Below, piece by piece: positions 44,574 through 60,147 of a DNA stretch of 64,000 nucleotides. The stretch spans positions 6,387,501 to 6,451,500 of the forward strand of contig NZ_CP029078.1 in assembly GCF_005222485.1 (NCBI RefSeq), in the 5' to 3' direction. Source of the stretch: Streptomyces griseoviridis. GTDB taxonomy: Bacteria > Actinomycetota > Actinomycetes > Streptomycetales > Streptomycetaceae. The position numbers and the translations under genes are program-made. Position 1 is the first letter of the stretch; each line of letters opens with the position of its first letter. The notes beneath the pieces were generated by a model, which saw only the letters and a program-made list of their open reading frames with translations, was not told the origin of the DNA and did no database searches.

Positions 44574-45564
44574 CCGAGCGGTAGTACCTGCGGGCGCCCT
44601 CGTGCAGGGCGAGCGGGTCGGTGTAGATCGCCGTGCGCAGGTCGACGAGTTGCGCGGAGTGGACCGTGGAGCCGATGCGGTCACGGCTCTTGATGACCGT
44701 GCGGGTGATCCACTCGGTCAGCCGCGGGTCGACGTCCGTGCGGGTCATCAGGAGGTTGGAGACCGCGATCGTCGGGACGGCCGCGCCGTTCTGGAGCCCC
44801 CGGTAGGCGGACTCCGGCATGTTGGTCGACCGGTAGTAGCGGGTCGCGCCGCCCTGCTCGTGCAGCTTGGCCACGAGGTCGGCGCCGATCGGCACGAAAC
44901 GGAACGCGAAGGACGACGTCAACTTCTGCAACCCCTGCGTGGGCAGCCCGCCCGACCAGAAGAACGCGTCGATCCGGCCCTCCTTCAGCCCCTCCGGCCC
45001 GACGTCGATGCCGTCGGAGCTGGCCGTGATGTCCTTGCCCGGGTCGATCCCCGCGGCCTTCAGGACCCGGTCCGCTATCAGCCGCACCCCCGAGCCGGGC
45101 GGCCCCGTCGACACCCGCCTGCCCTTGAGGTCCGCGACCGAGCGCACGGGCGAGTCGCGGGCCACCACGAGCTGGACGTAGTCGTCGTAGAGCCGGGCCA
45201 CCCCGCGCAGCCGGGTCGCGCCCGGGTTGTCGTCGCTCAGCTCGTACGTCTCCACCGCGTCCGCCGCCGTGATGGTGAAGTCGGCCTCCCCGGTGGCCAC
45301 CCGCCGCACGTTCTCCTGGGACCCGGCGCTGGTCGTCAGCCGCACCCGCAGCTCCGGCATGTCCTGGTGGAACTCCTGCTGGAGCAGCTTGCCGTACTGG
45401 TGGTACACCCCGGCCCTGGTGCCGGTGCTGAAGGTGATCGTGCCGCTCGGCGGGTCCTCGCCCAGGGGCAGCAGCCACCACAGCAGCAGCCCGAACGCGA
45501 CGATGCCGGCGGCGGACGCCTGGAGGGCGCGGCGCCGGCCGGGCCGGGGGAAGAACGTGGGCAT
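44563..45564 (-). CDS. TAXI-family TRAP-type solute-binding protein
   Basis: About 333 residues. A basic start and one hydrophobic segment (about 15-33, SAAGIVAFGLLLWWLLPLG) precede a TAXI domain (TFSTGTRAGVYHQYGKLL, TTSAGSQENVRRVATGEADFTI, GRRVSTGPPGSGVRLIA, IDAFFWSGGLPT). TAXI proteins deliver glutamate-like or dicarboxylate substrates to TRAP transporters; no TRAP permease gene is nearby. Its position beside gluR-gluK suggests it may feed ligand to the kinase instead (inference). The ATG at 45564 was chosen because the upstream in-frame stretch overlaps the mazG promoter. Confidence 0.9.
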   Translation of the reverse strand: MPTFFPRPGRRRALQASAAGIVAFGLLLWWLLPLGEDPPSGTITFSTGTRAGVYHQYGKLLQQEFHQDMPELRVRLTTSAGSQENVRRVATGEADFTITAADAVETYELSDDNPGATRLRGVARLYDDYVQLVVARDSPVRSVADLKGRRVSTGPPGSGVRLIADRVLKAAGIDPGKDITASSDGIDVGPEGLKEGRIDAFFWSGGLPTQGLQKLTSSFAFRFVPIGADLVAKLHEQGGATRYYRSTNMPESAYRGLQNGAAVPTIAVSNLLMTRTDVDPRLTEWITRTVIKSRDRIGSTVHSAQLVDLRTAIYTDPLALHEGARRYYRSVKP

Positions 45565-45647
45565 ACGCGCGATCCTGCCAGCAGCCACACGGAACTGGCC
45601 AGGCCCGGCGGACCGCTCCGTGGCCCGTGCGGCGCTGCGGGCGTCGG

Positions 45648-45659
45648 TAGAGTCGTCGT
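45648..45659 (+). promoter_or_regulatory. Leaderless promoter -10 of the MazG-like gene
   Basis: TAGAGT (45648-45653) followed by 6 nt and ATG 45660. There is no ribosome site, so the transcript is probably leaderless. Confidence 0.55.
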
Positions 45660-46088
45660 ATGACTGCATCGCCCGCCGACCTGGTCCGTGCCTTCCACCT
45701 CGCCGTCGGGCTCGACGCCCGCACCAGCCCCACCGAGGTGGAGCCGGGACTCGCCGCCCAGCGCGGCGCCCTGCTGCGCGAGGAGGCCGCGGAGGTCGCC
45801 GAGGTCGCGGTGGACGGGCCGCTGGACAAGCTCGCCCACGAGCTGGCCGACGTCGTGTACGTCGCCTACGGCACCGCCCTGGTGCACGGCATCGACCTGG
45901 ACGCGGTGATCGCCGAGATCCACCGCTCCAACATGACCAAGCTCGGGCCCGACGGCCAGGTCGTCCGCCGCGACGACGGCAAGGTCCTCAAGGGCGCGCA
46001 CTACCGGGCCCCGGACGTGAGCGCCGTACTGCGCCGCCAGGGCTGGAACCCCGAGGCCGCCGGCCAGGTCGCGCGGGACGGGTCCTAG
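45660..46088 (+). CDS. MazG-like NTP pyrophosphohydrolase
   Basis: 142 residues of the all-alpha NTP-PPase fold. The Mg-binding pattern ExxE...ExxD is seen as LREEAAEVAEVAVDGPLDKLAHELADVVYVAYGTA. Such enzymes hydrolyse non-canonical or excess NTPs to NMP and PPi. It is divergent from the TAXI gene and ends before a two-way terminator. Confidence 0.88.
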   Translation: MTASPADLVRAFHLAVGLDARTSPTEVEPGLAAQRGALLREEAAEVAEVAVDGPLDKLAHELADVVYVAYGTALVHGIDLDAVIAEIHRSNMTKLGPDGQVVRRDDGKVLKGAHYRAPDVSAVLRRQGWNPEAAGQVARDGS

Positions 46089-46097
46089 AACGGCGGA

Positions 46098-46149
46098 CGG
46101 GCCCACGGCGGCTCCCCTCCAGGGCGTGCCGTGGGCCCGAGTGACCGGT
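46098..46149. terminator. Bidirectional terminator between the MazG-like and antiporter genes
   Basis: CGGGCCCACGGC (46098-46109) pairs perfectly with GCCGTGGGCCCG (46138-46149) across a 28-nt loop, between two converging genes. Confidence 0.75.
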
Positions 46150-46154
46150 GGGTC

Positions 46155-47372
46155 TCAGTCGCCCACCGGAACCTCCTCCGCCTCCTCCACCGGCTGCGGG
46201 ACCCGCTTGCGGGCGGCCAGCCGGTCGGTGACGTGACGCGCGACCGGCTCGGTGTACCGCGCGGTGAGCGGGCCGATGACGACCAGGATGAGCACGTACG
46301 CCGTGGCCAGCGGGCCGAGCGAGCGCTCGATGCCCGCGCTGACCGCGAGGCCCGCGATGACGATCGAGAACTCGCCGCGCGCCACCAGCGCGCCGCCCGT
46401 CCGCCAGCGGCCCTTCACGGAGATGCCCGCCCGGCGGGCCGCCCAGTAGCCGGTGGCGATCTTCGTGGCCGCCGTGAGCAGGGCCAGCGCCAGCGCCGGC
46501 AGCAGCACCGGCGGGATGCTCGCCGGATCGGTGTGCAGCCCGAAGAAGACGAAGAACACCGCCGCGAACAGGTCGCGCAGCGGGCTCAGCAGGGTGTGCG
46601 CGCCCTCCGCGACCTCACCGGAGAGGGCGATGCCGACCAGGAACGCGCCGACCGCGGCCGACACCTGGAGCTGCTGGGCGACGCCCGCGACCAGGATCGT
46701 CAGACCCAGCACGACCAGCAGCAGCTTCTCCGGGTCGTCGCTGGAGACGAACCGTGAGATGACCCGGCCGTAGCGGACCGCCACGAACAGGACGAGCCCG
46801 GCCGCGCCGAGCGCGATGGCCAGCGTCAGACTTCCGGCGAGGAGGCCCGCGCCGGCCACGAGCGCCGTCACGATGGGCAGGTACACCGCCATCGCGAGGT
46901 CCTCCAGGACCAGCACGCTCAGGATCACCGGGGTCTCCCGGTTGCCGACCCGGCCCAGGTCGCCGAGGACCTTGGCGATCACCCCGGACGACGAGATCCA
47001 GGTGACGCCCGCCAGCACGACGGCCGCCACCGGGCCCCAGCCCATCAGCAGGGCGACGGCCGCGCCCGGCACGGCGTTGAACATCATGTCGACCAGACCG
47101 GCCGGGTAGTGCGACTTGAGGTTGGTGACCAGGTCACCGGCCGTGTACTCGAGGCCGAGCATGAGCAGCAGCAGGATGACGCCGATCTCGGCGCCGGTGG
47201 CCACGAACTCCTCGCTCGCGCCGAGCGGCAGCAGCCCGCCCTCACCGAAGGCGAGACCGGCCAGCAGGTACAGCGGGATGGGGGAGAGGCTGAAGCGGGC
47301 GGCCGCCCGCCCGAGCAGGCCGAGGGCCAGCAGGATGGAACCGAACTCGATCAGCAGGACAGCGGAGTGCAC
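46155..47372 (-). CDS. khtU: Monovalent cation:proton antiporter (CPA2, KhtU-like)
   Basis: About 405 residues with 12-13 membrane segments of the Na/H exchanger fold: GVILLLLMLGLEYTAGDL, WISSSGVIAKVLGDLG and VLVLEDLAMAVYLPI. It is paired with a TrkA-C protein 4 bp upstream, as in the Bacillus KhtTU K+/H+ antiport system. The GTG at 47372 follows the khtT stop; the longer in-frame start overlaps khtT. The C-terminus is a short acidic tail. It probably exports K+ under alkaline or high-K+ stress. Confidence 0.88.
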   Translation of the reverse strand: MHSAVLLIEFGSILLALGLLGRAAARFSLSPIPLYLLAGLAFGEGGLLPLGASEEFVATGAEIGVILLLLMLGLEYTAGDLVTNLKSHYPAGLVDMMFNAVPGAAVALLMGWGPVAAVVLAGVTWISSSGVIAKVLGDLGRVGNRETPVILSVLVLEDLAMAVYLPIVTALVAGAGLLAGSLTLAIALGAAGLVLFVAVRYGRVISRFVSSDDPEKLLLVVLGLTILVAGVAQQLQVSAAVGAFLVGIALSGEVAEGAHTLLSPLRDLFAAVFFVFFGLHTDPASIPPVLLPALALALLTAATKIATGYWAARRAGISVKGRWRTGGALVARGEFSIVIAGLAVSAGIERSLGPLATAYVLILVVIGPLTARYTEPVARHVTDRLAARKRVPQPVEEAEEVPVGD

Positions 47373-47376
47373 CCGA

Positions 47377-47862
47377 TCACTCCCGCCCGAGTATCGCCGC
47401 GGCGGCGTCCACGCCTTCACGGGTGCCTACGACGATCAGGATGTCACCGCCCGCCAGCCGGAAGTCGGGAGCGGGTGAGGGGATCGCCTCGGCCCGGCGC
47501 AGCGCGGCGACCACGGAGGCGCCGGTGTCGGTGCGCATCCGGGTCTCCCCGAGGACCCGTCCGTTCCAGCGGGAGGCCGCGGCCACCTCGATGCGCTCGG
47601 CCACCAGGCCGAGGTCGGTGGTGTACAGCAGGCTCGCGCTGTGGTGGGAGGGCTTCAGCGCGTCGATCAGCACGCCGGCCTCGGAGCCGGTCAGCCGCAG
47701 CGAGTGGGCGCAGGAGTCGGGGTCGTCGGCCCGGTACATGTTCACGGTCCGGGCACCGTCCCGGTGCGCCACCACGGACAGATGGCGCTGGTCCTTCGTC
47801 ACCAGGTCGTACTGGACCCCGATCCCCGGCAACGGCGTCGCCCGCAGGCGTGGCGCAGACAC
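47377..47862 (-). CDS. khtT: Antiporter regulatory subunit with TrkA-C domain (KhtT-like)
   Basis: 161 residues. An N-terminal regulator domain (TPLPGIGVQYDLVTKDQRHLSVVAHRDG) is followed by an RCK_C/TrkA-C domain (about 75-161; ERIEVAAASRWNGRVLGETRMRTDTGASVVAALR, DILIVVGT). KhtT controls KhtU, and in Bacillus KhtT binds c-di-AMP. The GTG start at 47862 follows GGGGAG. Confidence 0.88.
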   Translation of the reverse strand: MSAPRLRATPLPGIGVQYDLVTKDQRHLSVVAHRDGARTVNMYRADDPDSCAHSLRLTGSEAGVLIDALKPSHHSASLLYTTDLGLVAERIEVAAASRWNGRVLGETRMRTDTGASVVAALRRAEAIPSPAPDFRLAGGDILIVVGTREGVDAAAAILGRE

Positions 47863-47889: not shown

Positions 47890-47909
47890 CGTGATCATCG
47901 ATGATCACG
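47890..47909. promoter_or_regulatory. 20-bp perfect palindrome between khtT and the divergent two-component genes
   Basis: CGTGATCATC followed by its exact reverse complement. It lies 28 bp upstream of khtT. A second dyad, GTCACCCA (47928-47935) and TGGGTGAC (47953-47960), is closer to the kinase gene. Both are candidate operators in the shared control region; the binding protein is unknown. Confidence 0.6.
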
Positions 47910-48041
47910 GTCGGCACTCTGCATGGTGTCACCCACACGTACCGTGGCGATATGGGTGACGTGACGGATATACGCGAGCGGGGGCCTGTGAGGAGACTCG
48001 GCACAGCAGTGCCGGGAGCACGTGCCGGACGAGGGAGGACC

Positions 48042-49001
48042 GTGTCGCTGTTCTGGCGGATCTTCTCGCTCAACGCCGTCGGGCTGGTCGTCGCCGCCTC
48101 CCTGCTGCTCGGCCCGGTCACCGTCTCGACCCCCGTGCTGCCCGCCGAGGCGCTCGTCGTCGTCGGCGGTCTCGGGCTGCTCCTGGTCGGCAACGCGCTC
48201 GTGCTGCGCGCCGGGCTCGCCCCGCTGCGCCGGCTCGGCGGGGCCATGGCCGCGGCCGACCTGCTGCACCCGGGCGCCCGCGCCGAGGTCGCGGGCCCGG
48301 CCGAGGCGGCCGAGCTGATCACCACGTACAACACCATGCTCGAACGGCTGGAGAACGAACGCGCCGCCGGCGCGGGCCTCGCCCTCTCCGCGCAGGAGCG
48401 GGAACGCCACCGGATCGCCCGCGAACTGCACGACGAGGTCGGTCAGACCCTCACCGCCGTCCTGCTCCAGCTCAAACGGGTCGCCGACCGGGCCCCCGCC
48501 GACCTGCGGGCCGAGGTCGGCCAGGCGCAGGAGGCCACCCGGGCGGGGCTCGACGAGATCCGCCGGATCGCCCGCAGACTGCGGCCCGGCGTCCTGGAGG
48601 AACTCGGCCTGGTCAGCGCGCTGCGTTCGCTCGCGGGCGAGTTCACCACGCACGGACTGACCGTGCGCCACCACATCCCGGGAGGTCCAGGCGATCTGCC
48701 CGCCCTGACCGAGGAGTCGGAACTCGTGCTCTACCGCGTCGCCCAGGAAGGGCTCACCAACACCGCACGGCACTCCGGGGCCGACCGCGCCGAGATCAGG
48801 CTGCGGCCGGTCGACGGCGGGGTCGAACTCGTCGTCCGCGACAACGGCCGCGGCCTCGGCGGGGCCAAGGAGGGCGCCGGGATCGTCGGGATGCGCGAGC
48901 GCGCCCTGCTGGTCGGCGCCGACCTCACGCTCGGCCCGGGACCCGAGGCGGGCACCGAGGTGCGGCTGCGGGTCCCGGCCGCGGAAGGAACCACCCGATG
49001 A
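48042..49001 (+). CDS. NarL-type sensor histidine kinase
   Basis: About 319 residues. Two membrane segments (about 8-28 and 40-60) are followed by HAMP (about 60-110), HisKA_3 with His130 (ERHRIARELHDEVGQTLTAVLLQLKR) and HATPase (RVAQEGLTNTARHSGA, DNGRGL, GIVGMRERA). The extracellular loop is very short, so the signal is probably sensed in the membrane or cytoplasm. The GTG at 48042 follows GAGGGAGGA; an ATG at 47952 in frame has no ribosome site. It is coupled to the next gene by ATGA overlap. Confidence 0.9.
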   Translation: MSLFWRIFSLNAVGLVVAASLLLGPVTVSTPVLPAEALVVVGGLGLLLVGNALVLRAGLAPLRRLGGAMAAADLLHPGARAEVAGPAEAAELITTYNTMLERLENERAAGAGLALSAQERERHRIARELHDEVGQTLTAVLLQLKRVADRAPADLRAEVGQAQEATRAGLDEIRRIARRLRPGVLEELGLVSALRSLAGEFTTHGLTVRHHIPGGPGDLPALTEESELVLYRVAQEGLTNTARHSGADRAEIRLRPVDGGVELVVRDNGRGLGGAKEGAGIVGMRERALLVGADLTLGPGPEAGTEVRLRVPAAEGTTR

Positions 49002-49693
49002 ACCCGACCCCGCCCCCGATCTCGTCGCCCGCGCCCGTGGGTGCCCCGCCCGCCCGGGTGCTGCTCGCCGACGACCACGCGCTGGTCAGGCAGGGCGTCC
49101 GGCTCATCCTGGACGGCGAACCCGACCTGACCGTCGTCGCCGAGGCGGGTGACGGCGCCGAGGCGGTGGAGCTGGCCCGCGCCCACGAGATCGACCTCGC
49201 CGTCCTGGACATCGCGATGCCCCGGATGACCGGCCTCCAGGCCGCCCGCGAGCTGTCCCGGCGGATGCCGAACCTGCACATCCTGATCCTGACGATGTAC
49301 GACAACGAGCAGTACTTCTTCGAGGCGCTCAGGGCCGGCGCCAGCGGCTACGTCCTCAAGTCGGTCGCCGACCGCGACCTGGTCGAGGCGTGCCGGGCCG
49401 CGGTGCGCGACGAGCCGTTCGTGTACCCGGGCGCCGAGCGCGCCCTCGTCCGCTCCTACCTGGAACGGCTGCACCGGGGCGACGGCCTGCCCGAACGGGC
49501 CGTCACCGAGCGCGAGGAGGAGATCCTCAAGCTGGTCGCCGAGGGCCACACCTCGAAGGAGATCGGCGAGCTGCTGTTCATCAGCGCGAAGACGGTCGAA
49601 CGCCACCGCGCCAATTTGCTGCACAAGCTGGGCATGAAGGACCGCCTGGAGCTGACGCGGTACGCGATCAGAGCGGGCCTCATCGAACCCTGA
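48998..49693 (+). CDS. NarL/LuxR-family response regulator
   Basis: 231 residues. The receiver has Asp71 (LAVLDIAMPRMTG) and Lys in YVLKSVADRD. The LuxR helix-turn-helix is at about 165-225 (LTEREEEILKLVAEGHTSKEIGELLFISAKTVERHRANLLHKLGM, here with AVTE at its start). The partner of the kinase at 48042. Its targets are unknown; the adjacent K+ antiporter and PGA locus are possible ones (inference). Confidence 0.92.
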   Translation: MNPTPPPISSPAPVGAPPARVLLADDHALVRQGVRLILDGEPDLTVVAEAGDGAEAVELARAHEIDLAVLDIAMPRMTGLQAARELSRRMPNLHILILTMYDNEQYFFEALRAGASGYVLKSVADRDLVEACRAAVRDEPFVYPGAERALVRSYLERLHRGDGLPERAVTEREEEILKLVAEGHTSKEIGELLFISAKTVERHRANLLHKLGMKDRLELTRYAIRAGLIEP

Positions 49694-49800
49694 CCGGACT
49701 GGATCGGACCTGGTCGGAACTGGTTGGACCAGGTCGGACCTGGTCGGACCAGGTCGGACCTCGTCGGAACTGATCTCGGAACTGATCGGGTCCGACCGGC
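49694..49800. repeat. 10-11-bp minisatellite after the response regulator
   Basis: About eight imperfect copies of GGTCGGACCT/GGTCGGACCA/GATCGGAACT in tandem. The units are partly self-complementary and could fold into a set of hairpins. No other terminator is seen in this convergent gap. Confidence 0.8.
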
Positions 49801-49833: not shown

Positions 49834-50799
49834 TCAGCCGGCGGCCGCCCAGGTGCGGGTCAGTTCGGTGACGGCGGCCGTCGCGCGGTCGTTCGGCGCT
49901 CCGTCGGCGCGCAGCGGCGGGGCGAACTCGACATGCAGGAAGGGCACCCGCGCGTCGGCCGCGGTACGGCCCTGCGCGTTCGTCACACCGGCCAGCGGGC
50001 ATTTCCCGCGCCAGGCCCGGCAGACCCGGAATCCCCGCTCGCGCAGGGCGTCGGCGAGCAGCAGCGCCTCGGGACCCGCGGTCCTCGCCGCCGACGTCGA
50101 GGCGATGACGTCGTGGTGCGGGGCGGAGGAGCGGGCGAAGCCGTGCACCTGTATGCCGGGGAGGCCGCGCCTGACGAGTTCGGCGCAGACCGCGTGGAAG
50201 ATCGAACCCGGCTGGTGCGCCACGTCTGCCGAGCCGTCCTCGCCCGCCTGGCGGTGGGCCCCCGCGACGACCAGCACCCCGCCGGGCGAGCCGCGCAGCA
50301 CCCGCGCGCCGAGCACTTCGGTGTACTGGTCGGACGCCGGGTGCGGGACCTGCACGGACCAGCGGGCACGGTGGTCGAGGTCGAAGTAGACCCGCCCCCA
50401 GCCGCGCGGCGAGGCGGCCCGCTCGGTGCGGTCGGCGACCTCGGCGAAGCGGCGCCCCGAACCCCGGTCGACGACGGTGCGGAGGGTGAGGTCGAGCGCC
50501 GACAGGCGGCGTCCGGCCGCCGTCAGATCGCCGTCGAGCAGGAGCCCGACACCCGCGGCGACGCCCTCGCGGTCGGCCTCGGTGGGCGGCAGGTAGCCGG
50601 TGTCCGGTCCGAGCCTGCGGGCGTAGGCGGTCATCTCGGCGGTCAGGTCGACCTCGGTGGCCGGGTGGCGGGTACGGTCGTCGTCGGTCCCGTCGTGGTC
50701 GCGCGTGCTGGGCGGGTACACCGTCAGAACCGTTGCGAAACCAGCGAGAACCAGCACAATTGTCGCGATCGTTATGATCGTCGAGCGATCAGCTCTCAT
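49834..50799 (-). CDS. Membrane-anchored protein of unknown function beside capA
   Basis: 321 residues with an N-terminal membrane anchor (about 7-28, STIITIATIVLVLAGFATVL) and a body outside the membrane. Conserved-looking motifs are VPHPASDQYTEVLG (about 150-163), VVAGAHRQAG (about 174-183), DVAHQPGSIFHAV and FLHVEFAPPLR near the end. The His, Asp and Glu residues in these blocks could form a metal site like that of amidohydrolase or carboxypeptidase-type enzymes, but I do not recognise the family. It is divergent from capA, with only 20 bp between the two starts. A role in PGA turnover is an inference from position only. Confidence 0.8.
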   Translation of the reverse strand: MRADRSTIITIATIVLVLAGFATVLTVYPPSTRDHDGTDDDRTRHPATEVDLTAEMTAYARRLGPDTGYLPPTEADREGVAAGVGLLLDGDLTAAGRRLSALDLTLRTVVDRGSGRRFAEVADRTERAASPRGWGRVYFDLDHRARWSVQVPHPASDQYTEVLGARVLRGSPGGVLVVAGAHRQAGEDGSADVAHQPGSIFHAVCAELVRRGLPGIQVHGFARSSAPHHDVIASTSAARTAGPEALLLADALRERGFRVCRAWRGKCPLAGVTNAQGRTAADARVPFLHVEFAPPLRADGAPNDRATAAVTELTRTWAAAG

Positions 50800-50819
50800 G
50801 GTTGTATCAAGATATCCCG

Positions 50820-52031
50820 GTGATCAGACGACCCAGCCGCACCCTGCTGACCCTCGCGACCCCGCTCGCCCTCACCGCCTCCCTCGCCGGCTGCGGCACC
50901 TCGGGCGACGACGCGGCCCCGAAGGGCGGCGGACGCTCGTTCACCGTGGCCGCGGCCGGCGACATCCTGCTGCACCCGCAACTCATCGAGCAGGCCCGCG
51001 AGGACGCCAAGCAGACCGGCAAGGGCACGGCGGGGCTGGACTTCGGCCCCCTCATGGCGGGCATCGAGCCGGTCATCTCCAAGGCGGACCTGGCGATCTG
51101 CCACCTGGAGCCGGTGTTGGCCGGGCCCACAGGACCCTTCGAGGGCTTCCCCGACTTCGCGGTGCCGCCACAGATCGCCACCACCATCAAGGACATCGGC
51201 TACGACACCTGCTCCACGGCCTCCAACCACACCCTCGACCACGGCGTCCAGGGCGTGCGGCGCACCCTGGACGCGCTGGACGCGGCCGGGGTGAAACACA
51301 CCGGATCGGCCCGCTCCGAGAAGGAGTCGCGCACCCCGCTCGTCCTGGACGTCAAGGGCGTGAAGGTCGCGCAGCTGTCGTACGCCTTCGGCTTCAACGC
51401 CCATGAACTGCCCGCCGACAAGCAGTGGCTGGCCAACCTCACCGACTTCGACCGGATCAAGGCGGCCGAGAAGGCGGCGCGGGCGGCCGGCGCCGACGTC
51501 GTGATCCTCTCGATCCACTGGGGGCGCGAGCACATCCCCAACCCGGCCACCTCGCAGCTCAAGCTGGCCCGCAGGATCGCCCGTGAGACCGGCATCAACC
51601 TGGTCATCGGCCACCACGCGCACGTCGTCCAGCCGATGGAGAAGGTCGACGGCACCTGGATCGCCTACGGGCTCGGCAACCAGGTCGCCCGGCACGACGT
51701 GCCCACCGGGCTCACCGAGGAGGGCGTGATCGGCTGGTTCACGTTCACCGAGAGCGGCGACGGCTGGGACGTCCGCCCGCGCTACGAGCCGACGCTCCTC
51801 GAGGTCCCGCCGGACACCGAGAACACCGGGGACGGCGGCACCACGACGGCCGGTCCCGACGACTCCGCCGACTACCGGCTCATCGACGTGGCCACCACCC
51901 TGCGCGACGGCCACCCGAACGCGCAGCTGCGGGCCCGGCTGCGGCTGGCCTTCGAGCGCACCCAGGGCACCATGCTCAACCGCGGTGCGGCGGGCGACGG
52001 GCTGAAGCCCCTGACGGCACTGCCCCGCTAG
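50820..52031 (+). CDS. capA: CapA/PgsA-type metallophosphatase-fold lipoprotein (poly-gamma-glutamate biosynthesis)
   Basis: About 403 residues. It has a signal peptide with lipobox SLAGC (Cys25). The CapA domain shows all metal motifs of the calcineurin-like fold: AAGDILLHP, ADLAICHLEPVLA, TASNHTLDHG, VILSIHWGREHIPNP and LVIGHHAHVVQPMEK. In Bacillus the CapA/PgsA protein is the extracytoplasmic part of PGA synthesis and export. The GTG at 50820 and TTG at 50802 are both possible; the GTG puts a normal basic n-region before the signal helix. TATGAT (50773-50778) is a good -10 inside the divergent neighbour's start region. Downstream lie pgsB and pgsC. Confidence 0.88.
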   Translation: MIRRPSRTLLTLATPLALTASLAGCGTSGDDAAPKGGGRSFTVAAAGDILLHPQLIEQAREDAKQTGKGTAGLDFGPLMAGIEPVISKADLAICHLEPVLAGPTGPFEGFPDFAVPPQIATTIKDIGYDTCSTASNHTLDHGVQGVRRTLDALDAAGVKHTGSARSEKESRTPLVLDVKGVKVAQLSYAFGFNAHELPADKQWLANLTDFDRIKAAEKAARAAGADVVILSIHWGREHIPNPATSQLKLARRIARETGINLVIGHHAHVVQPMEKVDGTWIAYGLGNQVARHDVPTGLTEEGVIGWFTFTESGDGWDVRPRYEPTLLEVPPDTENTGDGGTTTAGPDDSADYRLIDVATTLRDGHPNAQLRARLRLAFERTQGTMLNRGAAGDGLKPLTALPR

Positions 52032-52230
52032 ACCGGTCGCCGGGGCGCCCCCGGTCACGTCGGGAACGCCGGGGACGCCCGCACCGGCCCCGCGGAATGG
52101 CCCGCGGAATGGCCCGCAGAGCGGCCTGCGGGAGGGCCTGCGGAACCGCCTGCGGGACGGTCCGCGGGCACCGGACTCGGCGATCCTGCGTCCCTCTGCG
52201 TCCCTCTGCTTCCCTCTGCGTTCTTCCGTT
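52032..52230. repeat. Imperfect tandem repeats after capA
   Basis: Around 52093-52172 are about five imperfect 15-bp units of the GCGGAATGGCCC/GCGGGAGGGCCT type. Around 52188-52222 are three copies of GCGTCCCTCT or close variants. No gene is seen. Confidence 0.6.
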
Positions 52231-52275
52231 ATCACCACTTTCGTGATGCCCCGTCCGAAAGTGGTGATCGCTTTT
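52231..52275 (+). terminator. Terminator-like hairpin (or operator) between capA and the double-HAMP gene
   Basis: A 13-bp perfect inverted repeat, ATCACCACTTTCG (52231-52243) and CGAAAGTGGTGAT (52256-52268), with a 12-nt loop followed by CGCTTTTG. The arms are unusually AT-rich for this genome, so an operator role is also possible. Confidence 0.6.
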
Positions 52276-52478
52276 GCCCTCAACTGACCGTTTGAAACTA
52301 TGAAGTTGCCTAGATCACATTCACTTCACAGCAACTCTTTATCAGCCTCATATGTCTCACGTTTCCGGAACCACCCGTGTCTCCGACGTAACTCGGGGCG
52401 CATCCGTCAGGCCCGACGTACCACCATTTGCATCCCGTGCGGGGAGGCCACCCCGCACGTGCCAGAGAGGACCGTTCC
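52276..52478 (+). promoter_or_regulatory. AT-rich promoter region of the pgs operon
   Basis: About 52285-52365 is much richer in A and T than its surroundings and contains TTGAAA (52292), TAGATC (52311) and CATATG, but no pair with ideal spacing could be fixed. A perfect 8-bp hairpin (GTGCGGGG, AGGCCA, CCCCGCAC) at 52437-52458 lies in the leader. GAGAGGA (52464-52470) is the likely ribosome site of the next gene. Confidence 0.45.
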
Positions 52479-54800
52479 TTGGCGTCTCCGCCCCCGGCAC
52501 GGCAGCACCGAGCCCGCCGCCGCGCCGACATGTCGCTGCTCGGTGGGATACGCCCGCCGATCGCGGTCCTGTCGGTGCTGCTGCTGTCGCTCGCCGGAGT
52601 CACCGCCCTCTTCCTCGGGCGGGTCGACCAGAGCGTCGTCCCCAAGGCGGTCCAGGTCTCCGAGCAGCACTTCGCCGAGGACGGCGCCATCGCGCTGCGC
52701 GCCTCCGTCGACGAGTCCGCCACCGACCTGGCCCGCTCCACCGTGCTGTTCAACGCGGGCAGCCCGGTCTCCGCGGACACCGTGCTGGACAAGCTGAGCA
52801 ACACGTACCAGAAGTGGATGGGCACGGCGGTCGTCGAGATCCGCTCGGGCAAGCTCCTGGCCGCACGGGGAGAAACGGTTCCGCTTCCGTCCCTCGACCG
52901 GTCCGCTCTCGCGGGCGAGGGCGGCCTCGACCCGAAGATGGTCCGCCTCAACAACGGCGAGGTACGGCTGCTGACCTTCTCGCTGCTGTCCTGGCCCGAC
53001 ACCCCGCAACAGCTCCTCGTCGCCTCCAGCGCCCTGAAGTTCCCCGGCATCAGCCTCGGCAAGTTCCGCTCCATCGCGGTCGTCGACCGGGCCGGCCGCA
53101 TCCTCAGCAGCGACGGCCTGCCCGTCGTCGAACAGGCCTCGACCGACCTCCAGCGCCAGGAGGCCAAGGTCTCCCGCAAGCAGCTGACGGAGTTCGCCGA
53201 ACGCGCCGGACGCAAGGCCGCACACGACGCCCGCACCACCAAGGAACCCGGCTCGGGCGGCTACCGGGGCGCCAGCGGCAGCCTGCTCGGCGGCCGCTTC
53301 CTCAGCGACCGCTCCGTCGGCGGCTACGCCACCCTCACCGGCCCCGCGCCCGGCGAGTCGAGCACCGCGTCGAGCCTCGGCCTCACCGTCGTCTCCATGG
53401 CGAAGGTCGCCGAGGACCCCACCCGCGTCATCTCGCCGCTGTTCGGGCTCATCGCCGCGGGCGCGCTGCTCGGCATCGGCGGCCTCGCCATCGCCGTCCT
53501 CATCGGCACCGTCCAGCGCCCCCTGATCCGGCTGTTCCTGGAGTCACGGCGGCTCTCGCGCGGTGACGTCGCCCGGCCCGTCGACGTCCCCGGGTACGGC
53601 GAGACCCGCCGGATCGGGGCCGCGCTCGAGCGGCTCCGCCGCCAACTGCACGGCGAGCCCGCCGACGCCACGGGCCCCGACGCCACGCCGCGCGGTCTGC
53701 GCAGGACCGGCAGCCGGGCCCTGCTGTGCGTCTGCGCCGCGCTGCTGCTGGTCTGGTCGGTGCCGCTGGTGCTCTTCCTGAACCGCGCCGACAGCACCGC
53801 CGTCGTCCCCCAGCAGCTCGTCGACGACCAGCGCGAACGCACCGACACCCTCAGCGACCGGGTGCGCCGCGCCCTCAACGAGGGTGACGCCGACCTTCTC
53901 TCGGTGGCCGGTCTGATCGGCGACCGCACCGAGGCCGACGCCATGACCAAGGTGCTGGAACGCACCATGACCGAACACCTGCGCTACCAGTCGCTGTACG
54001 TCGTCGACTCCTCCGGCCAGGTCGTCGCCCGCGCCGGGGCCAAGCCGCGCCAGGCACAGGCCAAGCCCGCCACCGCCGACCCGCTGCGCCTGACGGGCCA
54101 GGGCGGCAAGGAGCCCGTCGTCGTCGCCACCGCCGAGATCCCCGGCCGGGGTGGCTCCGCGCTGGTCGGCGAGTTCCGCATCGAGTTCCTCAACTCGCTG
54201 CTGCGCCGCCCGGGACTCGGCGTGGTGCGCCTCGTCGACAAGGACTCCAAGGTCATCGCGGGCAACACCGGCTTCCGCGCCTTCCAGTCGCTGCCCGACG
54301 AACGGCTCGGGGACCTGGTCGCGGCCACCGGCCTGAAGATCGGCAAGTCGGCCCACGCGGGCGGTGTCCTCTACCGCGACGACCACGTCAGGATCGCCGC
54401 CGCCGCGCCCTTCTCCGGCGGCGGCCCCGCCAAGGCGCTCGGCTGGACGGTGGTCAGCTGGCAGTCGGCCGACCGGCTCGCGATCCCCGAGTACGACCTC
54501 CAGAACCGCACGGTGCTGGCCGGACTGCTCGGCGCCGCCGCTGCCGCCGCCTGCCTCGGCTGGATGTTCATCGTGGTGGTCCGCCCGCTGCGGCACCTCG
54601 CCGCGCAGGCCGAGGCGCTGGCCGACGGCGACCGCAAGACGGTGCTCTTCCCGCGCCACCACGACGAGGTCGGCGCGGTCACCCGCTCCCTCGAACTCGT
54701 CCGCCAGCAGCTCCAGGACCAGCGCCGCAAGCAGCCGCGCGGCGCGCGGCCTCCACAGGACCCCCGTCACCCGCAGGACCAGCAGTACGTAAGGAACTGA
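52479..54800 (+). CDS. Four-TM protein with two extracytoplasmic sensors and two HAMP domains, no output domain
   Basis: About 773 residues. In order: TM1 (about 28-48), sensor 1 (about 49-317), TM2 (about 318-345), HAMP 1 (about 345-395), TM3 (about 414-434), sensor 2 (about 435-678), TM4 (about 679-702), HAMP 2 (about 702-752; EALADGDRKTVLFPRHHDEVGAVTRSLE) and a Pro/Gln-rich tail. The sensors look like Cache/PAS-type periplasmic domains. No kinase, cyclase, phosphatase or chemotaxis domain follows, so the signal must go to a partner protein. pgsB starts 6 bp downstream, making the PGA synthase the obvious partner (inference). The TTG at 52479 has GAGAGGA upstream; the ATG at 52530 is the alternative. 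Confidence 0.85.
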   Translation: MASPPPARQHRARRRADMSLLGGIRPPIAVLSVLLLSLAGVTALFLGRVDQSVVPKAVQVSEQHFAEDGAIALRASVDESATDLARSTVLFNAGSPVSADTVLDKLSNTYQKWMGTAVVEIRSGKLLAARGETVPLPSLDRSALAGEGGLDPKMVRLNNGEVRLLTFSLLSWPDTPQQLLVASSALKFPGISLGKFRSIAVVDRAGRILSSDGLPVVEQASTDLQRQEAKVSRKQLTEFAERAGRKAAHDARTTKEPGSGGYRGASGSLLGGRFLSDRSVGGYATLTGPAPGESSTASSLGLTVVSMAKVAEDPTRVISPLFGLIAAGALLGIGGLAIAVLIGTVQRPLIRLFLESRRLSRGDVARPVDVPGYGETRRIGAALERLRRQLHGEPADATGPDATPRGLRRTGSRALLCVCAALLLVWSVPLVLFLNRADSTAVVPQQLVDDQRERTDTLSDRVRRALNEGDADLLSVAGLIGDRTEADAMTKVLERTMTEHLRYQSLYVVDSSGQVVARAGAKPRQAQAKPATADPLRLTGQGGKEPVVVATAEIPGRGGSALVGEFRIEFLNSLLRRPGLGVVRLVDKDSKVIAGNTGFRAFQSLPDERLGDLVAATGLKIGKSAHAGGVLYRDDHVRIAAAAPFSGGGPAKALGWTVVSWQSADRLAIPEYDLQNRTVLAGLLGAAAAAACLGWMFIVVVRPLRHLAAQAEALADGDRKTVLFPRHHDEVGAVTRSLELVRQQLQDQRRKQPRGARPPQDPRHPQDQQYVRN

Positions 54801-54806
54801 TCCCCC

Positions 54807-56933
54807 TTGTTCTTCCTCTACACCGTTCTGCTGGTGTGCTGCGCGATCCTGCTCGTCGCAGGCGTCGTGGAACAACGACGGCACTTCACCAACCTGAACA
54901 ACATCCCGACCCGGGTGCTCGTCAACGGCATCCGCGGCAAGTCGTCCATCACCCGGCTGTGCGCGGGCGCGCTGCGCGGCGGCGACCTGGTGACGGTTGC
55001 CAAGACCACCGGCACCGCGGCCCGGTTCATCCACCCCGACGCCACCGAGGAGCCCGTCTACCGCAAGTTCGGCATCGCCAATGTCGTCGAGCAGATCGGC
55101 ATCGTCCGCCGGGCCGCCGCCTACAACCCGGACGCCCTGGTCATCGAGTGCATGGCGGTCATGCCGGCCCTCCAGGAGATCAACCAGTCCAAGCTGATCC
55201 GCTCCACCATCGGCGTGCTCTGCAACGTCCGTGAGGACCACCTCGCCGAGATGGGCCCGACCCTCGACGACGTCGCCCGCTCGCTCAGCCGGTCCATGCC
55301 CGAGGGCGGCATCTGCGTCACCGCCGAGAAGGAGCGGTTCGCGATCCTCCAGGAGGAGGCCGACTCGCGGGACTGCAAGCTCGTCTACGCCGACCCGGAG
55401 ACCGTCAGCGACGAGGAGCTGCGCGGCTTCAGCTGGTTCACCTTCAAGGAGAACGTGGCCATCGCGCTGACCGTCGCCGAACTCGTCGGCGTCGACCGCG
55501 AGACCGCCCTCCAGGGCATGTACGACGCCCCGCCGGACCCGGGTGTCCTCTCCGTGGAGCGCTATCTGACCCCCGGCGACAAGCGGCTGCGCTTCGCCAA
55601 CGTCTTCGCGGCCAACGACCCCGAGTCGACGCTGATGAACATCAACCAGCTGCTCGACCTCGGCGCCATCCACCGTCCGCTGAACGTCGTCATCAACTGC
55701 CGTCCCGACCGCGTCGAGCGCAACGGCCAGATGGGCGAGATCATCCCGGAGCTGGATCCGGAACACGTCTTCGTCATCGGCCACCCGGCCAAGTCCGCCA
55801 TCGACGCGATCCCCGCCGAGTTCCGCTCGCGCGCCGTCGACCTCGGCGGCGACCGGCGCGACCCCGAGGAGTTCATGGCCCGGCTGCTCGACATGCTCGG
55901 CCCGGACTCCTCGCTGGTCGCGATCGGCAACATCCACGGCCAGGGCGAGATCCTCCTCGAACACCTCGCCGAACTCCCGACCGACGAGACGATCGACGAG
56001 CCGACCGACGAGCCACCCGTGGGCGGGGCTTCCGGCGGGGCATCCCGTCGGGCCTCTGACCGAGGTTCTTCCGATGCTGGACTGCCTGCCGGCGGGGCGC
56101 CCGCTGGCGGGGTGTCCGCCGGTGGTGCGGCCGCTGGCGGGGTGCCAGCCGGTGGCGTGCCCGACGGTCGTCGGGCGGCTGGTGAGCTGGTGTCCGGTGA
56201 GCGGGCGTCCGGTGTGCGGGCGTCCGGTCCGTCGTCGTCCGCCGTTCCCGCCCGCGCGGCGGAGAGCCGGCAGCGGATGCCGGAGCACGCGGAGACGATG
56301 CGGCTCTACGCGCCGCGCATCGACCCCTACCAGCGCTACTCGGAGGCGTACGAGGCGCGGTACGGCGGTCAGCAGGGGCAGGGGCAGGGGCAGAACCCGG
56401 CGTCTCAGCAGGCGCAGGAGGCGCAGGCGCCGCAGGAAGCGCAGGAGTCGCAGCACTCAGGCCACTCTCAGCAGCCGCAGCAACACCAGCACCATCAGCA
56501 GCCACAGCAACACCAGCGCCAGAACCATCAGCAGGCACAGCAGCCCTACCAGACCAACCAGGCACAGCAGCATCAGGAGCCCTGGCAGCCGCAGGAGCAG
56601 CATCCGCATCCCGGGCCCCAGCAGCACGGTGGCCCTGAGCACGGGACCGGGTCCCGGTCGGGCTCGGCCGGCTGGCCCGAGGCGGTACCGCCGGTCCGGC
56701 GGGCGCCGTCCGCCGAGCGGGGCGGCACGCCCACCGCCCCGCCGGGTCCCCGTGGACTGTTCGAGCCGAGGGTGCCGCCGGTGCACCCCGTCTCCCCGGT
56801 GACGCCAGTAACCCCCGCCACTCCCGTGTCACCCGCGTCATCCGCACTCCCGGCACCCGCCGGTCCTTCCGTCACCCCCGTCACCCCCGCCGACGACCCC
56901 GAGCAGTGGCACAGCCCAGGAGAGCCCCGTTGA
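54807..56933 (+). CDS. pgsB: Poly-gamma-glutamate synthase PgsB with a long disordered C-terminal tail
   Basis: 708 residues. Residues 1-390 match PgsB/CapB: a short N-terminal membrane segment (LYTVLLVCCAILLVAGVVE), EQRRHFTNLNNIPTRVLVNG, then the ATP loop GIRGKSS (Lys45) and Mur-ligase-like blocks (ECMAVMPALQEINQ, NVREDHLAEMG, FAANDPESTLMN). It forms gamma-linked glutamate chains with ATP in complex with PgsC and CapA. Residues about 391-708 are not in Bacillus PgsB: an Ala/Gly/Val repeat region, a Gln/His-rich region (about 515-610) and a Pro/Thr-rich end. The TTG start has AAGGAA upstream and gives the correct family start. The stop overlaps pgsC. Confidence 0.9.
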   Translation: MFFLYTVLLVCCAILLVAGVVEQRRHFTNLNNIPTRVLVNGIRGKSSITRLCAGALRGGDLVTVAKTTGTAARFIHPDATEEPVYRKFGIANVVEQIGIVRRAAAYNPDALVIECMAVMPALQEINQSKLIRSTIGVLCNVREDHLAEMGPTLDDVARSLSRSMPEGGICVTAEKERFAILQEEADSRDCKLVYADPETVSDEELRGFSWFTFKENVAIALTVAELVGVDRETALQGMYDAPPDPGVLSVERYLTPGDKRLRFANVFAANDPESTLMNINQLLDLGAIHRPLNVVINCRPDRVERNGQMGEIIPELDPEHVFVIGHPAKSAIDAIPAEFRSRAVDLGGDRRDPEEFMARLLDMLGPDSSLVAIGNIHGQGEILLEHLAELPTDETIDEPTDEPPVGGASGGASRRASDRGSSDAGLPAGGAPAGGVSAGGAAAGGVPAGGVPDGRRAAGELVSGERASGVRASGPSSSAVPARAAESRQRMPEHAETMRLYAPRIDPYQRYSEAYEARYGGQQGQGQGQNPASQQAQEAQAPQEAQESQHSGHSQQPQQHQHHQQPQQHQRQNHQQAQQPYQTNQAQQHQEPWQPQEQHPHPGPQQHGGPEHGTGSRSGSAGWPEAVPPVRRAPSAERGGTPTAPPGPRGLFEPRVPPVHPVSPVTPVTPATPVSPASSALPAPAGPSVTPVTPADDPEQWHSPGEPR
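56020..56650 (+). repeat. Codon-scale repeats encoding the PgsB tail
   Basis: GGTGGCG/GGCGGGG-type repeats (about 56025-56160) followed by CAG/CAC/CAT-rich microsatellites (about 56365-56600). They encode the Gly/Ala and Gln/His tracts and differ in composition from the pgsB core. Confidence 0.75.
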
Positions 56934-57412
56934 TCCCCTCCGTCCTGACCCCCGAGATCGCCGCGATCGGCATCGGCCTGGGTCTGATGTTCTCGCTGAT
57001 GTGCTACCTGACGACGAACCTGTCGCCCGGTGGCATGATCACGCCGGGCTGGCTCGCCCTCACCCTCATCGAGGACCTCCAGCGCGCCGCGATCGTGCTC
57101 GGGGTGACCGTGCTGACGTACGTCACCACCCTGGTCCTCCAGAAGTTCGTGATCCTCTACGGCAAGCGGCTGTTCGCGACGGTCGTGCTCACCGGTGTGC
57201 TCATCCAGGGCGCGGTGATCATCGTGCTCCAGGTGGAGTTCCCGCTCCTCTACGCCAACCAGACCCTCGGCTTCATCGTGCCCGGCCTGATCGGCTACCA
57301 GCTGGTCCGCCAGCCCAAGGGCGCGACGCTGCTGTCCACGGGATCGGTGACGCTCGCGACGTACGTCGTGCTGACCGCCGGCATCCTCCTCGGCGCCCTC
57401 CCGACCGCCTGA
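56930..57412 (+). CDS. pgsC: Poly-gamma-glutamate biosynthesis protein PgsC
   Basis: 160 residues (Bacillus PgsC has about 149) with four to five membrane segments. Family blocks are GLMFSLMCYLTTNLSPGGMITPGWLAL, FVILYGKRLFATVVLTGVL and GFIVPGLIGYQLVRQ. PgsC is the membrane partner of PgsB. The TTG at 56930 overlaps the pgsB stop (TTGA) and follows AGGAGA at 6 nt, so the two are translationally coupled. The GTG at 56906 is in frame but lies inside pgsB with no ribosome site. Confidence 0.9.
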   Translation: MIPSVLTPEIAAIGIGLGLMFSLMCYLTTNLSPGGMITPGWLALTLIEDLQRAAIVLGVTVLTYVTTLVLQKFVILYGKRLFATVVLTGVLIQGAVIIVLQVEFPLLYANQTLGFIVPGLIGYQLVRQPKGATLLSTGSVTLATYVVLTAGILLGALPTA

Positions 57413-57449
57413 GCCCCGACCTACCGCACACCTCCTGGAGTTCCCCACC

Positions 57450-58505
57450 ATGCCGAAGCGGAAAAGCCGCCCCGTCCTGCACGCGGCGACGGTCATGGCG
57501 CTGCTCGCGGGCAGCGCCTACTTCACCTACGAACTGCGCAAGGACGAGCAGGCGAAGGTGCCGGCGGTGCAGTCCGTCACCGACGGTCTCCAGAACTCCG
57601 GCGGCGGCGCCACCGGCAAGGAGTCCTGGGAGCGGCTGAACAACCCGGCGCGCTCGGTGCTCAGGGACGGCAAGGGCGCGGTGATCGCCACCTTCACCGA
57701 CGGCGCCCGCAGCGCCACCCTCAAGGGCCCCTCCCGCACCTTCGCCGAGCCCGTCAACACCTCCTCGCGGGTGGTCACCGACGACTGGGTGCGGCTGATG
57801 CCCGAGCCGTGGATCAAGGGCGCCGAGAAGGAGCAGTGGTTCAAGGACTGGTTCAAGGAGGCGTCGGGCAGCGAGGAGGACGACATCTTCGCGTTCGCCT
57901 TCCAGTACGTCGAGGGAGCGCCGATCAAGAAGGACTCCGAGGGCATCCCGTACGCCGGTGACGCCGTGTTCGGTCCGTTCAAGGAGGACGGCGTCGACCG
58001 CCTCGAACAGAACGACTTCTACGACTACCTCGGCATCTCCTACACCTTCCGCAGCGGCACCACCCTCGTCCCGCGCAAGGAGCGCTACCGGGCGCTCGAC
58101 TGCTCCGGCTACATGCGCATGGTGTGGGGCTACCGGGCCCGCTTCCCGCTGATGGCCGACAACGCCTCGGGCGACGGCCTGCCCCGCTCCGCCGACGGCA
58201 TGGCCCGCTCGAAGACGGGCGTCGACATCATCAAGCTCCAGGGCCCGTCGCCCTGGTACACGCGGCCGAAGAACATCGACGTCCTCCAGCCAGGGGACCT
58301 GCTGTTCTTCAAGATGGACCACCGCACCGCCAACCACCTCGACCACGTGGCGCTCTACCTGGGCCTCGACACCGAGGGGCACCGGGTGTTCATCTCCAGC
58401 CGCAAGGAGCAGAACGGCCCGACGATGGGCGACGCCGGCGGCGTCTCCCGCATCGACGGCAACGGCTTCTACGCGGGTCTGTTCCGCAGCGCCAAGCGCC
58501 TCTGA
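57450..58505 (+). CDS. Membrane-anchored NlpC/P60-type cysteine peptidase (PGA or wall hydrolase)
   Basis: 351 residues. The N-terminal anchor is at about 10-27 (LHAATVMALLAGSAYFTYEL). The NlpC/P60 domain is at about 205-345 with catalytic Cys218 (ALDCSGYMRMVWGYR) and His299 (NHLDHVALYLG). The family cuts gamma-D-glutamyl bonds in peptidoglycan or in PGA; Bacillus PgdS, a PGA depolymerase of this family, lies next to pgsBCA. The gene starts 37 bp after pgsC and is likely in the operon. The segment about 100-200 is not recognised and could bind polymer. Confidence 0.85.
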   Translation: MPKRKSRPVLHAATVMALLAGSAYFTYELRKDEQAKVPAVQSVTDGLQNSGGGATGKESWERLNNPARSVLRDGKGAVIATFTDGARSATLKGPSRTFAEPVNTSSRVVTDDWVRLMPEPWIKGAEKEQWFKDWFKEASGSEEDDIFAFAFQYVEGAPIKKDSEGIPYAGDAVFGPFKEDGVDRLEQNDFYDYLGISYTFRSGTTLVPRKERYRALDCSGYMRMVWGYRARFPLMADNASGDGLPRSADGMARSKTGVDIIKLQGPSPWYTRPKNIDVLQPGDLLFFKMDHRTANHLDHVALYLGLDTEGHRVFISSRKEQNGPTMGDAGGVSRIDGNGFYAGLFRSAKRL

Positions 58506-58617: not shown

Positions 58618-60147
58618 ATGACCATCAGCAGCGACCGGAGCCCGGCAGTGGACACCTCAGCGCCCAAGACCTACGAAGTCCGTACCTACGGGTGCCAGAT
58701 GAACGTCCACGACTCCGAGCGATTGTCCGGGCTGCTGGAGGGCGCGGGCTACGTGCGCGCGCCCGAGGGGTCCGACGGCGACGCGGACGTCGTCGTCTTC
58801 AACACCTGCGCGGTCCGTGAGAACGCCGACAACCGGCTCTACGGCAACCTCGGCCGGCTCGCGCCGCGCAAGGTGAGCAGGCCCGGCATGCAGATCGCGG
58901 TCGGCGGCTGCCTCGCCCAGAAGGACCGCGACACCATCGTGAAGAAGGCGCCCTGGGTGGACGTCGTCTTCGGCACGCACAACATCGGCAAGCTGCCGGT
59001 CCTGCTGGAGCGCGCCAGGGTCCAGGAAGAGGCGCAGGTCGAGATCGCCGAGTCCCTCGAGGCGTTCCCCTCCACGCTGCCGACCCGGCGCGAGAGCGCC
59101 TACGCGGCGTGGGTGTCGATCTCCGTCGGCTGCAACAACACCTGCACCTTCTGCATCGTGCCCGCGCTGCGCGGCAAGGAGAAGGACCGCAGGACCGGCG
59201 ACATCCTCGCCGAGGTCGAGGCGCTGGTCGCGGAGGGCGTCAGCGAGGTCACCCTGCTCGGGCAGAACGTCAACGCCTACGGCTCCGACATCGGCGACCG
59301 CGAGGCGTTCAGCAAGCTGCTGCGGGCCTGCGGCTCGATCGACGGCCTGGAGCGCGTCCGCTTCACCTCACCGCACCCCCGCGACTTCACCGACGACGTC
59401 ATCGCTGCCATGGCCGAGACGCCCAACGTGATGCCGCAGCTCCACATGCCGCTCCAGTCGGGTTCCGACCCGGTCCTCAAGGCGATGCGCCGCTCCTACC
59501 GGCAGGAGCGCTACCTCGGGATCATCGAGAAGGTCCGCGCCGCCATCCCGCACGCCGCGATCACCACGGACATCATCGTGGGCTTCCCCGGCGAGACGGA
59601 GGAGGACTTCGAGCAGACCCTGCACGTCGTCCGCGAGGCCAGGTTCGCGCAGGCGTTCACCTTCCAGTACTCCAAGCGGCCCGGCACCCCGGCGGCCACC
59701 ATGGACGGGCAGATCCCCAAGGAGGTCGTCCAGGCCCGCTACGAGCGGCTGGTCGCGCTCCAGGAGGAGATCTCCTGGGAGGAGAACAAGAAGCAGGTCG
59801 GCCGCACCCTCGACCTGATGGTCGCCGAGGGCGAGGGCCGCAAGGACGGCGCCACCCACCGCCTCTCCGGACGCGCCCCCGACAACCGGCTGGTCCACTT
59901 CACCAAGCCCGACGAGCCGGTGCGCCCCGGTGACGTCGTCACCGTCGAGATCAGCTATGCGGCCCCGCACCACCTCCTCGCCGAGGGCGCCGCCCTCGCC
60001 GTCCGCCGCACCCGCGCGGGCGACGCCTGGGAGAGGCGCAACGCCGCCGAGGCCGCGAAGCCGGCCGGCGTCATGCTGGGCCTCCCGAAGATCGGCGCCC
60101 CGGCCCCGCTGCCGGTCGCGACGGGCAGCGGCTGCGGCTGCGACTGA
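58618..60147 (+). CDS. miaB: tRNA-2-methylthio-N6-isopentenyladenosine synthase MiaB
   Basis: A 509-residue radical-SAM methylthiotransferase that converts i6A37 of tRNA to ms2i6A. The auxiliary-cluster cysteines are at YGCQMN (Cys26), [10 protein letters not shown] and GGCLAQK. The radical-SAM motif is Cys172-x3-Cys176-x2-Cys179 (GCNNTCTFC), and a TRAM domain follows at about 385-455. YGCQMN and VRENAD mark MiaB rather than RimO. The C-terminus ends GSGCGCD, as usual in Streptomyces. Its partner miaA is at 62153. Confidence 0.97.

Follow-up and report, generated by a model that had tools for sequence, protein, structure and literature searches.

The closest described counterparts of the locus considered here are the poly-gamma-glutamate (PGA) systems of Bacillus, namely the pgsBCAE and capBCA operons together with PgdS, whose gene lies beside pgs in B. 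subtilis. PgdS is a C40 peptidase according to PMC6506827, and the PGA class of CapsuleFinder, as set out in PMC5542703, has CapB and CapC as mandatory components, CapA as an accessory one and a PGA-digesting enzyme as a forbidden one. Further points of comparison are the gamma-PGA hydrolases PghP and PghL of Bacillus phages and prophages. A stretch of 64,000 nucleotides from Streptomyces griseoviridis (contig NZ_CP029078.1, positions 6,387,501 to 6,451,500; hereafter “the window”) carries a six-gene unit at positions 49834-58505, from a gene termed X321 to an NlpC/P60 gene, between a NarL-type two-component pair and miaB. Like the Bacillus systems, it contains homologues of PgsB, PgsC and CapA/PgsA and a nearby NlpC/P60-type (C40) hydrolase; in contrast to pgsBCAE, the gene order is CapA-sensor-PgsB-PgsC-NlpC with X321 divergent, and a tandem dCache-HAMP protein and X321 are added. 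This unit is probably a chromosomal cassette that moves horizontally and serves to make and remodel extracellular PGA or a closely similar gamma-linked polymer of glutamate. The features of the cassette and its flanks are as follows:

47901-49001, forward strand: sensor histidine kinase (HisKA_3 and HATPase_c family matches), left flank, outside the cassette
48998-49693, forward strand: NarL/LuxR-type response regulator, left flank
49694-49772, no strand: tandem 10-bp repeats at the left junction
49834-50799, reverse strand: X321, one N-terminal transmembrane helix, predicted PghP / N-formylglutamate amidohydrolase fold
50820-52031, forward strand: CapA/PgsA-type protein (PGA_cap), start GTG 50820 or TTG 50802
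52231-52268, no strand: perfect 13-bp inverted repeat upstream of the sensor-pgsB genes
52530-54800, forward strand: double dCache-HAMP protein, ATG 52530 taken as the start, frame open from 52428
54807-56933, forward strand: PgsB, ATP-dependent gamma-glutamyl ligase (NCBI PgsB equivalog)
56906-57412, forward strand: PgsC/CapC membrane subunit (Pfam PF14102)
57450-58505, forward strand: NlpC/P60 (C40) peptidase-like protein (PF00877; C218 and H299)
58618-60147, forward strand: miaB, right flank

An earlier note made from the sequence alone had described CapA, PgsB, PgsC, the double-HAMP protein and the NlpC/P60 protein, and profile scores place all five at the positions given there; family matches likewise confirm the NarL-type pair and miaB as the borders of the block. 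The reverse-strand gene X321, the most informative part of the interval, was missing from that description.

The synthase genes are clearly recognized. PgsB passes the NCBI PgsB equivalog TIGR04012 with 376 bits (cut-off 222.7), and in a search of the whole 8.96 Mb genome it alone passes, with 378 bits against 10.8 bits for the runner-up; a single CapC was found in the same genome. By profile score, PgsB is therefore not a mis-called Mur ligase, which decides in favor of the earlier note the concern that the protein might group with these enzymes. PgsC exceeds the cut-off of PF14102 (110 versus 27 bits) and falls short of that of the NCBI equivalog TIGR04011 (67.1 versus 96.45 bits). CapA passes PF09587 (227 bits, cut-off 27) and exhibits a lipobox-like LAGC sequence, read by eye. 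The PgsB equivalog match and the Pfam matches of PgsC and CapA thus support the proposed assignment as a locus for gamma-PGA-type synthesis. The reported overlap of pgsB and pgsC is real, as the PgsB stop codon TGA occupies 56931-56933 and the PgsC frame is open from GTG 56906, with an alternative in-frame start at TTG 56930 that would yield a 4-nt overlap with the pgsB stop. The conserved core of PgsB spans approximately residues 1-395 and is followed by a low-complexity tail rich in P, A, G and Q (residues 396-708); PgsB length ranges from 393 to 708 amino acids across the 92 loci compared below, the window copy being the longest.

Differences from the Bacillus operons extend to the accessory genes. 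No hydrophobic small open reading frame resembling PgsE/CapE was noticed in the three gaps of the window locus, to which this inspection was confined, and no CapD-type gamma-glutamyltransferase is present among the six cassette genes, the only part of the genome searched for it. CapA is often missing in related loci. For the 18 CapA-less named genomes in which a CapA homologue was sought, the closest one lies elsewhere, at 46-51% identity, suggesting that an unlinked CapA may serve; the window genome also has a second CapA copy elsewhere (50% identical). The departure from the Bacillus operon in gene content, the score of PgsC below its equivalog cut-off and the presence of two possible wall hydrolases in the cassette would fit another polymer that is gamma-linked or contains glutamate, or glutamate chains on a wall component, instead of free gamma-PGA. 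This alternative is considered unlikely, as PgsB exceeds its equivalog cut-off by more than 150 bits and three gamma-PGA hydrolase structures are among the structural neighbors of X321.

Sequence searches yielded no family for X321. The protein has no match in Pfam or NCBIfam at E <=1, and the 12 families matched by any of 47 X321 family members, with a best E of 0.025 or worse, include no PGA hydrolase. The alignment used (A1) comprised 46 of 120 listed homologues (of 430 matches), all at least 50% identical to the window protein. Sequence comparison with solved structures gave chance matches only (E 0.26 or worse), and the lead therefore came from fold prediction. The model of X321 (predicted local distance difference test, pLDDT, 85) finds its closest folds in the N-formylglutamate amidohydrolase 2q7s, Atu2144 (2odf) and the PghP group, and falls within the fold of the PghP family (PF05908). 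Among the listed matches of X321, at least two bear the name N-formylglutamate amidohydrolase (P0165, P0180). Although 2q7s and 2odf are the best structural matches, X321 is set apart from them by the lack of any Pfam match and by its linkage to PGA synthesis genes.

The likeness to PghP extends to the putative active site. In a profile comparison with PghP of phage PM1 and six other Bacillus phages, residues H40, E45, H78, H103 and E165 of PghP pair in order with H153, D157, H195, H219 and E291 of X321, in a weak alignment (probability 12-20%) whose local confidence is high only in the surroundings of H195-H219; aligned in global mode, the two profiles matched over 12 columns and gave nothing useful. 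Among 83 X321 sequences, H195 and H219 are kept in all and H153, D157 and E291 in 81 each. H182, initially regarded as the first zinc ligand, was dropped, since it is replaced in 3 of the 83 relatives (one of them distant) and the profile alignment takes H153, H195 and H219. The “zinc peptidase” of phage Bobb was likewise discarded as a PghP relative, being an M23 peptidase. X321 differs from PghP and PghL in its very low identity, the missing Pfam match, an Asp in place of Glu at the second zinc-ligand position, its membrane anchor and the divergent orientation of its gene to the synthase; a tblastn search of a phage collection at E 0.01 gave no match.

X321 is a companion of the synthase: CapC is present in 82 of 88 genomes with X321, and X321 was undetected in 25 of 107 genomes with CapC. 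This count used 89 of 95 X321 matches; the remaining six were additional fragment rows from genomes that were already represented. Such linkage might also result from wall remodelling during polymer export, in which case X321 would be an amidase acting on peptidoglycan or peptides rather than a hydrolase of polyglutamate. This is possible but doubtful, given that the top folds are 2q7s, 2odf and the PghP group, that the ordered residues fit PghP and that the linked genes are those of PGA synthesis. X321 is accordingly best described as a membrane-anchored, predicted extracytoplasmic amidohydrolase of no known family and, judging from its modelled fold, a candidate gamma-PGA depolymerase.

The second candidate hydrolase, the NlpC/P60 protein, passes PF00877 with 27.6 bits (cut-off 23). 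Residues C218 and H299, which are taken to be the catalytic Cys and His of a C40 peptidase, are conserved in 85 and 89 of 89 sequences, respectively. C218 is replaced by Ser in loci L132, L133 and L137 and by Ala in L072, which suggests inactive versions in these four loci. The single structural match of the model (pLDDT 77) at E <=0.001 is the catalytic domain of an autolysin (7cfl); a sequence search of solved structures produced no match below E 0.47, PgdS itself not being part of the comparison. The protein is a candidate polymer or wall hydrolase. In contrast to the CapsuleFinder PGA class, the cassette combines the synthase with two candidate hydrolases, and together with the lack of CapD among its six genes, this favors a released or remodelled polymer over a fixed capsule.

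The protein encoded directly upstream of PgsB contains two HAMP stretches (PF00672, 51 bits) and a dCache match below the cut-off (26.8 versus 45 bits). It arose by internal duplication of a sensor region plus HAMP unit, as its halves are 24% identical (E 2e-8), and its transmembrane helices lie near the start and around each HAMP. Pfam and NCBIfam scans revealed no recognized output domain. Among the best 120 of 630 homologues, all those carrying an organism name are from Streptomyces, and a shorter relative (374 amino acids) is located beside PgsB in L128, a locus from a genome of another family. Because of its constant linkage to the synthase genes, the protein is predicted to be an extracytoplasmic sensor or a modulator of the synthase.

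Taken together, these assignments suggest a mechanism in which PgsB and PgsC would perform the ATP-driven joining of glutamate at the membrane, with CapA, a predicted lipoprotein, helping outside the cell. The tandem dCache-HAMP protein would sense something outside and, since it has no recognized output domain, might act on the synthase itself or serve as a scaffold. The NlpC/P60 protein and X321, membrane-bound or secreted, would cut the polymer for release, shortening or recycling.

Such loci are widespread in the genus. CapC/PgsC was detected in 107 of 392 same-genus genomes (106 above the family cut-off). Of 296 genomes drawn from the class, 10 carried it, including three from other genera, and the sample contained it in 4 of 114 genera. 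A PgsB scan of named genomes kept 80 of 316 relatives, all Streptomyces, with a best identity of 94%. In PMC6506827, gamma-PGA genes are described as abundant in soil microorganisms, with Streptomyces named first. The presence of such genes in Streptomyces is therefore not new, and the idea of the earlier note that they are unusual in this genus was not borne out. No report of gamma-PGA made by Streptomyces was found in the literature searched, which covered few of the subscription journals.

Gene order was compared in 92 loci chosen for holding PgsB (80 from named genomes, 11 others and the window), with a threshold of at least 60 bits. The HAMP protein and PgsC were each present in 91 of these, NlpC in 89, X321 in 83 and CapA in 62. 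X321 occurs without CapA in 22 of the 83 loci that bear it, and the reverse, CapA without X321, is seen in L110. The nine loci in which X321 was not seen include some cut by contig ends; L132, L133, L137 and L138 retain several kb of upstream sequence and consist of HAMP-PgsB-PgsC-NlpC without X321 and CapA, as does L061. Outside the family, L129 (genome G468) exhibits a pair of CapC matches separated by about 0.5 kb, next to a distant PgsB and X321.

Related copies of the cassette sit at many different chromosomal places. The cassette tree was built with FastTree from joined HAMP, PgsB, PgsC and NlpC sequences of 88 of the 92 loci; the other four were omitted because HAMP, PgsB or PgsC was absent or too short. 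The nearest relative of the window cassette in this tree is that of S. corallincola (L093), located at a site not common to others, and the next-nearest, those of S. anandii and S. naganishii, lie between a dxs-permease-NYN and a thiolase-RNase D block (names read from the sequences). The window cassette falls inside a set of 20 rows, 16 of which are at this dxs site (support 100). The window genome contains the dxs-like block as well (L143), and there it holds no cassette. The site label changes 17 times on the tree, compared with a mean of 46.3 after shuffling (0 of 200 shuffles as low); the 17-change count is rough, as early-ending contigs labelled “other” inflate it and lumping unmatched sites as “other” deflates it.

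At the window site, the regulator-miaB interval of loci L122-L126 is a variable spot, measuring approximately 0.1 kb (100 bp) in G017, 2.2 kb in G011, 2.8 kb in G014 and 2.9 kb in G022, all without PgsB and the last three with differing contents, and 8.6 kb in G009, where other genes fill it and the cassette lies 1.3 Mb away. In all five loci, the histidine kinase adjoins the regulator, and the motif TACCCTTG upstream of miaB is shared with the window. In the comparison between the pair and miaB that the earlier note had proposed, four PgsB-less relatives have the interval without the cassette, but a close regulator copy near miaB was found in only 5 of 24 same-genus relatives searched (several assemblies being fragmented), so that the flanking arrangement is itself variable and not universal. 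No MiaB was found in the 80 loci from named genomes, which extend no more than 10 kb in either direction. Nevertheless, the nearly empty site in G017 and the cassette-free dxs-like site in the window genome support the suggestion that the cassette was inserted between the NarL-type pair and miaB.

An ancestral block at the pair-miaB site, lost in relatives without any transfer or relocation, would be in keeping with the decay of cassettes in place in other genomes. It is very unlikely in view of the nested position of the window copy among dxs-site cassettes, the differing contents and lengths of the interval in the five relatives and the existence of plasmid copies. Among plasmid records, six matches to PgsB were obtained at E 1e-60, all of them from Streptomyces, comprising three records of S. 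clavuligerus (1.8 Mb), one of S. finlayi (180 kb) and two more; pgsB is already annotated in two of the six, and in one of them PgsC as well. Transfer by plasmids is therefore plausible. In the S. finlayi plasmid (NZ_CP045703.1, 180,509 bp), the PgsB match stops about 0.3 kb before the record end and PgsC is not on the record; L145 ends in the same way. Integration at tRNA genes is not supported, as the two tRNA genes in the window, at 2174 and 29392, are far from the cassette.

Broken copies exist elsewhere. In G009, L131 lies 3.2 Mb away from the intact cassette and comprises a second, broken CapC together with NlpC and short fragments of PgsB and HAMP; L147 (G326) and L148 (G334) are cassette scars in which X321 or part of it lies beside only the 3' end of NlpC. 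The broken copies in L131, L147 and L149 raise the question of whether the cassette of the window strain is a silent or decaying remnant as well. This is scarcely probable, since all six frames are open with a coding-like GC content at third codon positions (0.89-0.97) and the X321 and NlpC residues discussed above are kept. In overall GC content, the cassette matches the window (0.714 versus 0.716).

The left-junction repeats are head-to-tail 10-bp units of the TCGGACCTGG/TCGGACCAGG type and start directly after the regulator stop codon. The 13-bp inverted repeat was rejected as an operator, as it is present in none of the loci searched, and a simple promoter and terminator scan, which covers Streptomyces promoters in part, gave no match. 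Further left, a TAXI-type TRAP solute-binding protein and a Na/H exchanger are encoded on the reverse strand at 44563-47420; both also adjoin the two-component pair in L122 and L124-L126, and the exchanger does so in L123.

The locus is real and complete-looking, and what is new in it is chiefly the X321 family and the built-in sensor. A more far-reaching proposal is an actinobacterial polyglutamate system in which the dCache-HAMP protein is an integral sensing subunit of PgsB-PgsC with linked CapA dispensable, X321 proteins are new membrane-anchored gamma-PGA hydrolases of the PghP fold, and the whole module moves between chromosomal sites and plasmids; it is put forward tentatively, as less likely than not. 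To our knowledge, polyglutamate is absent from the usual list of Streptomyces extracellular polymers. If the proposed function is correct, a polyanionic, protein-like slime could be produced by about one in four Streptomyces species, with consequences for biofilm formation, shielding from phages, the binding of metals and viscosity in fermentation. X321 would then represent a new family of bacterial enzymes that cut gamma-PGA and could be used to dismantle it, and the dCache-HAMP protein would provide a direct, testable link from an outside signal to polymer synthesis.

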